From positions 248,001 through 312,000 of the forward strand of contig NZ_SNUK01000003.1 in the NCBI RefSeq assembly GCF_012027495.1: a DNA stretch of 64,000 nt, given 5' to 3'. Source of the DNA: Thermococcus sp. JdF3. Its GTDB lineage: Archaea; Methanobacteriota_B; Thermococci; Thermococcales; Thermococcaceae. The translations under genes and the position numbers were made by a program. Positions 6,207 through 20,301 of this stretch are shown here, one piece after another (position 1 is the first letter of the stretch; every line of letters begins with the position of its first letter). The notes below the pieces were generated by a model. It ran no database searches. It worked only from the letters and a program-made list of their open reading frames with translations, and was not told the DNA's origin.

Positions 6207-6259
6207 GGTACTCTATACTGTACCAAATATTTATAAGTATCGGTATTTTATATCGTACC
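6207..6259 (+). promoter_or_regulatory. Promoter with twin palindromes flanking the TATA box
   Basis: Two 18-bp near-palindromes, GGTACTCTATACTGTACC (6207-6224) and GGTATTTTATATCGTACC (6242-6259), agree at most positions and begin 35 bp apart. A TATA element TTTATAAG (6230-6237) lies between them. The second copy ends directly before the ATG at 6260, so transcription would start at or next to the start codon (leaderless). The arrangement suggests an operator pair, probably autoregulatory; the regulator is unknown. Confidence 0.6.
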
Positions 6260-7531
6260 ATGAATCCGGACGAGGTCAAAAGGTACATCCGTCTGTTCCA
6301 TGAGAGGGACCTGCCGGGGGCCATGGAAAGGGAGTTACAGCCCCCGTTGAATCCAGGAAAGGCCACTGCCATAATCGGTCCGAGACGTTCCGGGAAGACA
6401 TACCTCCTATACTCGATGGTTGGTGAGAACAGGGAGCGCTACGTTTACCTGAACTTCGAGAACCCGCTCCTTTTTGGAACCTCCGGCCGCGATTTTCCGG
6501 GGATAGTGGATGCCTACTTCGACCTTTACCCTGAAAACGTTGGGGCGGATGTTTTCTTTCTGCTCGACGAGGTGCAGAACGTCCCGGGCTGGGAAACGGG
6601 CGTCAGGTACCTGCTCGACGAGGGATTCAGGGTTGCCGTCACTGGGTCGTCCTCGAAGCTCCTCTCACGGGAGGTTGCAACCCAGCTGAGGGGACGGGGG
6701 GTTTCGTACACCCTGCTCCCGCTGTCCTTCAGGGAGTTCCTGCGTTTCAAGGGGGTCGAGTTTGAAAAGCACGAGCTGTATGGGCGGAAGGTTCACCTGA
6801 TAAAAAAGCTCCTGGAGGAGTACCTGAGGTACGGTGCCTTCCCCGAGGTGGCCCTGCTCGACGACCGGGTCAGAATCCTCGAGGAGTACCTCTCGGTAAT
6901 GATAACGAAAGACATCGTGGAGCGACACAGGATAAGAAACGTTGCCCTGGTTGAGGTTATCGTCAAGCTCCTGCTCTCGAACTACGCGAAGTACACCTCG
7001 TACAGCTCGATACATCGCTTCCTGAAGTCAGAGTTCGGAACGTCGAAGACGACCGTCCTGGAATACCTGAGGGCCCTGGAGGATTCCTTCTTCGTCTTCT
7101 TCCTTCCAAAGTTCGCCCCCTCCAGAAAGGAGTCCCTCCGGGCCCCGAGGAAGGTTTACCTGATTGATACCGGGCTTGCCCTCTTCTCAAGGAAAGACCC
7201 TGCGAGGGACGTGGAAAACGCGGTCTTCCTTGAACTCCTCAGGAGGAAGCACTATTCAAACCCCCTCCTCAGCATCCACTACTATGGGGGGTCCGGTGAG
7301 ATGGAGGTTGATTTCGTGGTCTCGGAGTCCGGAAGGCCCGTGGAGCTTATTCAGGTGACAATGAGCCTGGAAGGGACGATGGACCGCGAGATATCCGCGC
7401 TCATCCATGCCGGCAGGGTTCTCGGCTGCAAGAACCTGACGGTGGTGACGCTCGAAGATGAAGACGCCGTGGAGGTGAACGACCTCAGAATAAACGTCGT
7501 CCCCCTCTGGAAGTTCCTGCTGGGCATATAA
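6260..7531 (+). CDS. AAA ATPase with C-terminal DUF4143 domain
   Basis: A 423-aa protein of the AAA_14-DUF4143 type, common and often multicopy in Thermococcales. Walker A is GPRRSGKT, Walker B is FLLDEVQNV, and sensor-like TGSSSKLLSRE follows. The C-terminal part includes EMEVDFVV followed by VELIQV, which resembles a PD-(D/E)XK nuclease core in which the lysine position is Q. Roles proposed for the family are varied and unproven. ATG at 6260 is chosen over an upstream ATG at 6200 because the TATA box lies between them. The twin palindromes just before it suggest tight regulation. It stands alone. Confidence 0.85.
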   Translation: MNPDEVKRYIRLFHERDLPGAMERELQPPLNPGKATAIIGPRRSGKTYLLYSMVGENRERYVYLNFENPLLFGTSGRDFPGIVDAYFDLYPENVGADVFFLLDEVQNVPGWETGVRYLLDEGFRVAVTGSSSKLLSREVATQLRGRGVSYTLLPLSFREFLRFKGVEFEKHELYGRKVHLIKKLLEEYLRYGAFPEVALLDDRVRILEEYLSVMITKDIVERHRIRNVALVEVIVKLLLSNYAKYTSYSSIHRFLKSEFGTSKTTVLEYLRALEDSFFVFFLPKFAPSRKESLRAPRKVYLIDTGLALFSRKDPARDVENAVFLELLRRKHYSNPLLSIHYYGGSGEMEVDFVVSESGRPVELIQVTMSLEGTMDREISALIHAGRVLGCKNLTVVTLEDEDAVEVNDLRINVVPLWKFLLGI

Positions 7532-18638: not shown

Positions 18639-18796
18639 GTGGCAGGTAGATGGTGACGACCGGGTCGTTGCCCTCTATCTCAACCCATATTCAGACCGCA
18701 TCGCTCTTCTTAACAGTCCTCTGGAGACCCGTCCGTGACAAGAATAACGAAGAACTGGAAGTTCCCCGAGGAGAAGAGGGCGACTAAACCTTTTTA

Positions 18797-18832
18797 ACTA
18801 TCGGGGTGATAGTATACTATCGGGGTGGTAGT
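18797..18832 (+). promoter_or_regulatory. Tandem palindromic operator overlapping ATPase start
   Basis: Two tandem 17-bp units, ACTATCGGGGTGATAGT (18797-18813) and ACTATCGGGGTGGTAGT (18816-18832), 19 bp apart. The first is a perfect ACTATC/GATAGT inverted repeat with a 5-bp spacer; the second has one mismatch. A T-rich TATA-like element (18791-18797) is immediately upstream, and the second unit ends at the TTG start at 18833. The GGGGTGG inside the second unit also serves as ribosome binding site. Confidence 0.65.
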
Positions 18833-19921
18833 TTGTACTTTGATGAAAGACCAAAGGTCAGGAGAGATGACCTCTATGACCGAGAGAGGGAGCTGGAAGA
18901 GTTGCTAACTGCTATAAACTCACGGAAGCCCCTCATACTGGTCAAAGGAATACGCAGGCTGGGGAAGACCTCCCTCCTAAGGGTGGCCCTTAACGAAGCG
19001 GAACTCCCCCACGTCATAGTTGATCTCAGGGGGGTGAATCCCAACTCAAGGCGTGACCTCTACCTCCGCTTTCAAGCGGCACTCAACGAGTACCTCTCGA
19101 AAAACGCTCCCCTTCTCAAAAAACTAAAGGACAGGATAAGACTCATAGATGGAGTGAGAATCTCAGGTATAGGCGTTTCGCTCTCATGGAGAAACCCCGA
19201 AACGCTGTATTCCCTGATCTCTGCCCTTGAAAGCGAAGGGTTTGTAATAGCGTTCGATGAGGTCCAGGAGATTAGGGGCCCGGCTGGGAAGGAGCTGGCT
19301 TCACTAATAGCCCATTTCTATGACTACGGCGAGACAAGCTTCATCTTAACCGGGAGCGAGGTTGGGCTTCTCTACGACTTTATTGGCATTGAGAACCCCA
19401 ATGCACCCCTTTACGGGAGGGTCTGTCATGAAATAGGACTCAGGCGGTTTTCGAGAGAGCAGAGCCTGGATTTTCTAACTAGAGGCTTTGAACAGGCGGG
19501 AATCAAAGCGCCGGCAGAGATCCTGGAGGAGGCAGTTAACAGGCTTGACGGCATAGTTGGATGGCTCGTTAAGTTTGGAGTGATTTCGCTCAAGGAAGGA
19601 CTGAACAAAAAAACTGTGGATAGGGTTCTTGAAGAAGCGTCGAAGATGGCTTTGGGAGAGCTTGATCGCTTCCTTGAGAAGAGACCCCTCGCGAGGAAGC
19701 GTTATTTAACGGTTCTTCATGCAATAGCCCGCGGAAGAAACACTTGGAGCGAGCTGAAGAGAGAGCTTGAAAAAGCGGAAAAGCGCGAGATAACAGACGC
19801 TACCCTCGCGAGGCTCCTCGATGCCCTCCTCAGGGCCTCTTTCATAGAGAAAAAGGCTGACGGCAGGAACATAACCTACCACATAGCCGACCCCGTGCTG
19901 GAGTTCGCGTTGCGGAGATAA
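18833..19921 (+). CDS. Archaeal AAA ATPase (ATPase_2 / PF01637-like)
   Basis: A 362-aa STAND-like archaeal ATPase with Walker A GIRRLGKTSLLR, Walker B FVIAFDEVQE and sensor-like ILTGSEVGLL, followed by a C-terminal winged helix (about 290-362). The family is greatly expanded in Thermococcales and its function is unknown. I prefer a TTG start at 18833, giving the usual family opening YFDERPKVRRDDLYDRE; a GTG at 18806 would place the start inside the operator repeats. Both palindromes end at this start, so the protein or a relative may regulate its own synthesis. Confidence 0.82.
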   Translation: MYFDERPKVRRDDLYDRERELEELLTAINSRKPLILVKGIRRLGKTSLLRVALNEAELPHVIVDLRGVNPNSRRDLYLRFQAALNEYLSKNAPLLKKLKDRIRLIDGVRISGIGVSLSWRNPETLYSLISALESEGFVIAFDEVQEIRGPAGKELASLIAHFYDYGETSFILTGSEVGLLYDFIGIENPNAPLYGRVCHEIGLRRFSREQSLDFLTRGFEQAGIKAPAEILEEAVNRLDGIVGWLVKFGVISLKEGLNKKTVDRVLEEASKMALGELDRFLEKRPLARKRYLTVLHAIARGRNTWSELKRELEKAEKREITDATLARLLDALLRASFIEKKADGRNITYHIADPVLEFALRR

Positions 19922-20057: not shown

Positions 20058-20301
20058 GAGGGTGGGTTTCTAAACTCGAGGTCAACTTTTCCTGTGAGAA
20101 CCTCCAAAGATTCCTTGCAAAGGGGTTTGACTTCGAAAAGATGTCCGAAGGGCATCAAAAGAAAGCAAACCCTGCACAAAGAGGCCTTTAAAGCAATTCT
20201 CCACGCTAAACTGCTCCAATAATAAGAAACCCCCTGGAAACCGGCATTTCAAGAAGGAGCTACGAACCTTGATCAAACTTCGCGCAGGCGAAGTTTGTAA
20301 C

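Follow-up and report, generated by a model that had tools for sequence, protein, structure and literature searches.

Paired palindromes before archaeal PF01637 ATPase genes are predicted to be operators read by the winged helix of the adjoining ATPase

What is the role of two nearly identical palindromes placed between the TATA box and the start codon of an archaeal ATPase gene? This question is raised by a locus in the window, the whole stretch of 64,000 nucleotides from Thermococcus sp. JdF3 that was analysed and to which positions refer unless another locus is named. Operator copy 1 (18797-18813; ACTATC-GGGGT-GATAGT, ACTATCGGGGTGATAGT) has six of six arm pairs and lies between the TATA box and the inferred transcription start. 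Operator copy 2 (18816-18832; ACTATC-GGGGT-GGTAGT, ACTATCGGGGTGGTAGT) has five of six arm pairs and spans that start; neither copy is assigned to a strand. The copies are 94% identical and start 19 bp apart, and copy 2 ends at 18832, abutting TTG 18833 of the ATPase gene. The ribosome-binding site GGGGTGG lies inside copy 2, whose core is the Shine-Dalgarno sequence. An earlier note had described two ACTATC-N5-GATAGT-type repeats, 19 bp apart, that run up to TTG 18833 and include the ribosome-binding site, and both the coordinates and the pairing confirm it. On a score that rates two mutually repeating palindromes about 19 bp apart (threshold, at least 20 of 24), the upstream region reached 22, a value attained by none of 3000 shuffles (best, 19); the tandem palindromes are not a product of chance. 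Exact ACTATC-N5-GRTAGT was found in the 2.14-Mb genome only at copies 1 and 2, and a genome-wide search for an excess of single sites with one mismatch gave a frequency no higher than that of the reversed control pattern.

The ATPase gene (18833..19921, plus strand, TTG start) encodes 362 amino acids with a PF01637 AAA+/STAND-type ATPase domain and a C-terminal winged helix, as assigned from Pfam, PDB relatives and an AlphaFold model. The PF01637 (ATPase_2) match reached 63.7 bits, compared with the curated Pfam cut-off of 33.2. Walker A is GIRRLGKTS (residues 39-47) and Walker B is AFDE (residues 140-143); G39, R42, G44, K45, D142 and E143 were invariant in 41 diverse members. The only close PDB relatives were 2FNA (SSO1545) and 2QEN (Paby2304), with sequence E-values of 3.5e-60 and 8.1e-55, Foldseek E-values of 1e-27 and 1.3e-26, and TM-scores of 0.88 and 0.83, respectively. 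The AlphaFold model (mean pLDDT 96.2) contains a recognition helix at residues 322-334 followed by a beta wing at 338-351. Judged by this model, the window ATPase is of the SSO1545/Paby2304 type of PF01637, with a predicted overall fold, including the C-terminal winged helix, that matches 2FNA and 2QEN. Both proteins share its family and domain layout, and to our knowledge neither structure has an assigned function. The codons of residues 321-334 (19793..19834, plus strand) encode the N-cap T321 and the recognition helix (DATLARLLDALLR), of which the first residues co-vary with the operator, as described below.

The protein translated from TTG 18833 begins with MYFDERPK, and because this fits the family N-terminus M[LY]FDxRPK, TTG 18833 was taken as the right start. 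A longer ORF from GTG 18806 was rejected, as it would begin upstream of the inferred transcription start. In four relatives with ACTACT operators (L027, L129, L145 and L151), ACG is found where the start codon usually stands; either ACG is used, or a GTG within operator copy 2.

The core promoter was predicted from sequence at 18785..18797 on the plus strand, with a BRE-like TAAAC at 18785-18789 and the TATA box CTTTTTAA at 18790-18797. The last A of the TATA box (18797) doubles as the first base of copy 1. The same overlap is contained in the family consensus GAAA-N3-CTTWTA[A], which stands immediately before copy 1 in 153 aligned operators and whose final A is the operator's first base; the order BRE, TATA box, copy 1, copy 2 and start codon is fixed in the family. 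For Pyrococcus and Thermococcus a distance of about 23 bp from the last TATA adenine to the transcript start downstream of it has been published (PMC6640164; similar median in PMC4247193). From this rule, and with no measured transcript, the transcription start was inferred at A18819 (plus strand), at a T/A pyrimidine-purine step a few bases inside copy 2, which would give a leader of about 14 nt. Since the TATA box overlaps copy 1 by one base, the rule also implies that copy 1 is untranscribed and that the left arm of copy 2 is cut.

Relatives were gathered from 61 Thermococcaceae genomes and from Thermococci, Crenarchaeota, Hadarchaea, Bathyarchaeota and others. The genome that contains the window has 24 PF01637 matches, nine of which belong to the RPK-type subfamily of the window protein, and most of these nine genes carry paired palindromes of differing sequence between the TATA box and the start codon. 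A score of at least 20 was obtained for 76% of 207 family members. Among 272 genes of the same loci outside the family 1.5% reached it, and no shuffled sequence out of 621 did; of the four control matches, two were family operators viewed from spurious antisense ORFs. The fraction with tandems remained at 73-75% after clustering at 80, 60 and 50% protein identity (28 clusters at 50%). The centre-to-centre spacing was 19 bp in 138 of 158 tandems, the half-site A[C/G]TNNN occurred in 28 consensus versions, and nearly all genome-wide tandem matches stood at ATPase starts. The enrichment of paired palindromes before other family members, which the earlier note had proposed as a check, was thus found. 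About 25% of family clusters have no canonical tandem by this score; some of them have a visible variant and others show no fit. One such variant is the operator of the L013 group, CCACCAGTAACTGGTGG; another is the long inverted repeat of the L231 group.

Other arrangements were seen in single loci or small groups. In L225, L231 and L232 a single long inverted repeat, TTTTGGAC...GTCCAAAA, precedes the start codon, and a TTTTGGACGTCC-like half stands again just 3' of the stop codon. L102 carries three tandem operator copies (AGTATC type) upstream of its ATPase and not two.

The relation between operator and protein was examined residue by residue. In a Mantel comparison of operator distance with winged-helix as against ATPase-domain distance, phylogeny dominated (partial r for the winged helix, 0.06) and the result was uninformative; per-column and per-branch tests were used in its place. 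With protein distance regressed out, half-site position 2 was best matched by residue 322 among 329 columns (r 0.67), and positions 4-6 jointly by residue 321. D or E at 322 occurred with C at position 2 in 106 of 106 cases and N, K or R with G in 41 of 42, with only about three independent events for this C/G switch. N321 was found with T at position 4 (46/46) and T321 with A (30/30). In the branch test, which controls for branch length, residue 321, at Z=5.6, stood first among 358 columns, the runner-up reaching Z=3.0; 14 of the 22 changes at residue 321 fell on the 31 tree branches where the operator changed, compared with 5.0 expected. Residues 323 and 326 ranked 12 and 15, respectively, and residues 320 and 325, which are probably buried, ranked 336 and 345. 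The recognition helix comprises residues 322-334 in the AlphaFold model, so the co-varying residues are located where winged helices read DNA. Co-variation of the palindrome with the C-terminal winged helix, the second check proposed, was thus resolved to individual residues where the recognition helix begins. In statistical terms, and with no binding data, the operator sequence appears to depend on the protein's own DNA-binding residues.

Small steps of the same kind were visible within the clade of the window gene, where ITDAT is paired with ACTATC, [TA]DST with ACTACC, SDSV with ACTTCT, and ADSV with ACTACT (10 genes, three of them ACTACC). Where the helix had the form D321-x-[KRH]-[NT]-F, the half-site was ACTGGT in all 16 members, which come from several clades; other D321 helices did not go with it. 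Rules linking residues to half-site bases were found at 321, 322 and 324. The position-2 rule learned on Thermococci was right in 24 of 25 other archaea, mostly for the common D-C case. Transfer was poor for residue 324 with positions 5 (6/19) and 6 (2/19) and for residue 321 with position 5 (7/24), and these rules were therefore regarded as clade-specific.

Half-sites were not always distinct within one genome. In that of the window, ACTTAC is common to paralogs L005 and L012, which have different helices, and ACTACC to L009 and L011. The proposal of a class of private operators, one for each ATPase, is supported by the enrichment and the co-variation and withstood the refuting conditions named with it, with the correction that these pairs share half-sites. 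Further exceptions are a small number of operators that have no ATPase beside them or that are repeated 3' of an ATPase gene. The privacy is good but not perfect.

We consider it likely, with good confidence, that the palindromes are a double DNA operator for the downstream ATPase, bound by its own winged helix in autoregulation and most likely in repression. What the statistics of aligned sequences establish is the class of operators, the constancy of its promoter geometry and the co-variation with the recognition helix; binding, dimers, repression as opposed to activation, and an ATP/ADP switch are inferred. The C-terminal winged helix, presumably as two dimers, would read the half-site ACTATC through the N-terminal end of the recognition helix. 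The bound protein would lie over the initially melted region and the transcription start as well as the 3' edge of the TATA box, and should thereby block the loading of TFB and RNA polymerase and repress its own gene. Pyrococcus TrmBL1, bound downstream of a TATA box, blocks recruitment of RNA polymerase (PMC4706686). The negative autoregulation would probably be controlled by the state of the ATPase. Because paralogs differ in half-sites and recognition helices, most are predicted to regulate only themselves, and the regulon seems to be the own gene, given that hardly any tandem match in the genomes lies elsewhere than at an ATPase start. Plain autoregulation does not predict operators without a cognate ATPase, and it leaves operator repeats at 3' ends likewise unexplained.

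In 27 of 147 members (four Thermococcales groups) the cognate palindrome is found again where the ORF ends, compared with 5 of 735 background windows, and 14 of the 27 copies begin on the last base of the stop codon. No 3' copy was found at the window gene or in most groups. At one locus (G018) the TATA box and the operator are kept and the ORF is absent, with limits that fall almost exactly at its start and stop, the operator directly abutting DNA that lies 3' of the ATPase stop codon in L162 and L025. At two others (G039 and G002) a solo operator stands behind a DUF763 gene.

Among the individual loci inspected, the operator was seen again directly after the ATPase stop codon, bracketing the ORF, in L264-L266, L271, L012, L108, L093, L013 and L107, and the bracketed ATPase of L271 is broken. 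Solo operators without an adjacent intact ATPase start were seen in L267 (at 3343), L268 (2837), L269 (2687), L270 (2517), L272 (2217), L273 (1850), L274 (2901) and L283 (2058), mostly at the 3' ends of other genes. In L267 and L269 the operator precedes an ORF by about 50 bp, a membrane-protein one in L267 and a nucleotidyltransferase-like one in L269, so a few may be real targets.

The 3' and solo copies could reflect recombination between flanking repeats or a past as a mobile cassette. In its strongest form, the latter idea makes operator and ATPase a minimal self-propagating cassette, with the ORF set exactly between two cognate tandem palindromes that its own winged helix would read as end or attachment sites; excision would leave a solo operator, and divergent specificity would avoid cross-interference. 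We regard this as unlikely, though it deserves to be kept in mind. The looser version, which makes operator and ATPase a small mobile or attachment-site cassette or the descendants of one, with the operator as its end or attachment site, the ATPase as a helper that binds it and regulation as a by-product, we likewise doubt. It would account for the 3' palindromes and for the solo operators at gene-less loci, and relatives at 65-80% protein identity mostly share no flanking DNA. However, no transposase or integrase is encoded, just the ATPase and its winged helix; searches of plasmid and phage collections gave no matches, with one fragment only in IMG/VR; and the window gene and most groups are without a 3' copy. 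Thermococcales genomes are also frequently rearranged, the flanking-DNA comparison had no synteny baseline from other genes, and homologous recombination between repeats would leave solo sites too.

Autoregulation by the bound ATPase need not mean repression: the protein could activate or merely mark its own gene, or the operator could be an Orc1/Cdc6-like origin site. This has little to recommend it beyond the fold. The next structural neighbours after 2FNA and 2QEN are Orc1/Cdc6 initiators, which are winged-helix DNA binders, but the TM-scores to them are only about 0.5, the sites occupy the stretch from TATA box to start codon, a position from which regulators are known to obstruct polymerase, and a genome carries many of them, every one at its own start codon. 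Identity of the window ATPase as an Orc1/Cdc6 initiator was rejected, with 13-16% identity at that TM-score and no Orc1/Cdc6 among the sequence matches.

It is quite improbable that the palindromes act as RNA, as 5'-leader hairpins that hide or expose the ribosome-binding site in translational control. The site does adjoin the start codon, with the Shine-Dalgarno sequence as the core of copy 2, but the TATA-to-start distance of 23 bp predicts, for an inferred transcript start, that copy 1 is not in the mRNA and that copy 2 enters it without its left arm. Of 153 relatives, 148 have the copy 2 core in Shine-Dalgarno orientation; copy 1 has a G-rich core in 61, a C-rich one in 39 and a symmetric or other one in 53. 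Such a constraint on copy 2 alone is expected if the mRNA includes only that copy. Copy 1 is equally palindromic without any such constraint, and the operator sequence follows a DNA-binding helix. Promoter geometry and the free copy 1 core thus favour DNA operators over an mRNA hairpin.

Least credible of all is a role of the sites as targets of some other transcription factor common to them, such as the glycolytic regulator TrmBL1, or as general promoter furniture, since half-sites differ among the paralogs of one genome, are nearly absent from other genes and track the recognition helix of each ATPase, even though archaeal regulators commonly target palindromes 3' of TATA boxes and the TrmBL1 motif TATCAC-N5-GTGATA is superficially alike (PMC4706686). 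The window site was rejected as a member of the TrmBL1 regulon, as ACTATC-N5-GATAGT does not match that motif.

The earlier note had also likened the layout to that of a gene at 6.2 kb. The gene at 6260 encodes, by Pfam, an AAA_14/DUF4143 protein, a family other than PF01637, and its palindromes lie at 6207-6224 and 6242-6259. The likeness extends to two palindromes of which the second reaches the start codon of an archaeal ATPase gene, and it ends there, as the 6.2-kb palindromes stand on either side of the TATA box at a distance of 35 bp from each other. In DUF4143/AAA_14 relatives (L318-L330) the palindromes also flank the TATA box, 33-35 bp from start to start, with the second ending at the ATG. 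Because both family and geometry differ, the DUF4143 operators were assigned to a second class. Palindromes of this class such as TGGTAC-N-GTACCA were conserved over 13 genomes, and other subgroups had other sequences.

Regulators that bind their own genes are already known. Controller proteins of restriction-modification systems, antitoxins and RAYT/REP pairs bind a private palindromic site beside their own gene, with specificity that diverges between relatives. They have unrelated folds; here the pair consists of ATPase and operator, with many paralogs per genome, and is spread across archaeal phyla. Orc1/Cdc6 proteins are likewise AAA+ proteins with a winged helix and sequence-specific sites, and 1FNN and 2QBY are the third and fourth best structural neighbours of the window ATPase; unlike origin recognition boxes, the ATPase sites are palindromic and each lies at its own start codon. 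TrmB/TrmBL1 of Pyrococcus, with the glycolytic motif of Thermococcales, resembles the present case in its 17-bp palindrome directly 3' of BRE/TATA (PMC4706686), but it has one regulon-wide motif of other sequence and belongs to another protein family, whereas the ATPases have a doubled site at the own gene. The DUF4143/AAA_14 proteins are likewise an archaeal ATPase family with two palindromes of which the second abuts the start codon, and differ in Pfam family and in the placement around the TATA box. No published description of these operators was found in the full-text literature searched, which did not cover subscription papers, including the 2FNA structure paper. As far as could be tested, doubled self-operators that co-evolve with an ATPase family across the archaea are a new form of such self-binding regulation.

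Sequence-specific recognition of the own promoter would be the first testable function for this large archaeal ATPase family. About 150 natural protein-operator pairs form a data set for a winged-helix recognition code, in which single residues are predicted to change single bases, for example A323 to S with T to C, and D322 to N with C to G. Thermococcales genetics would gain many thermostable switches that differ from one another, and hundreds of natural self-matched switches are suggested. The solo and 3' copies raise the question of whether protein-operator pairs spread as units.

Two further features were noted around the window gene. A remnant of the 3' end of a DUF763 gene (18735..18788, plus strand) lies to the left of the promoter, as identified by blastn to L274, L277, L278 and L282 and a Pfam DUF763 match on L278. 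A full DUF763 gene occupies this position in related genomes, so the locus is rearranged. A recurrent intergenic hairpin, TTGATCAAACTTCG...CGAAGTTTG / TTTGATGAAACTTTTCGCCAGAAAAGTTTC, was seen at about 20272-20300 of the window and upstream of several ATPases (L008, L266 and L270).
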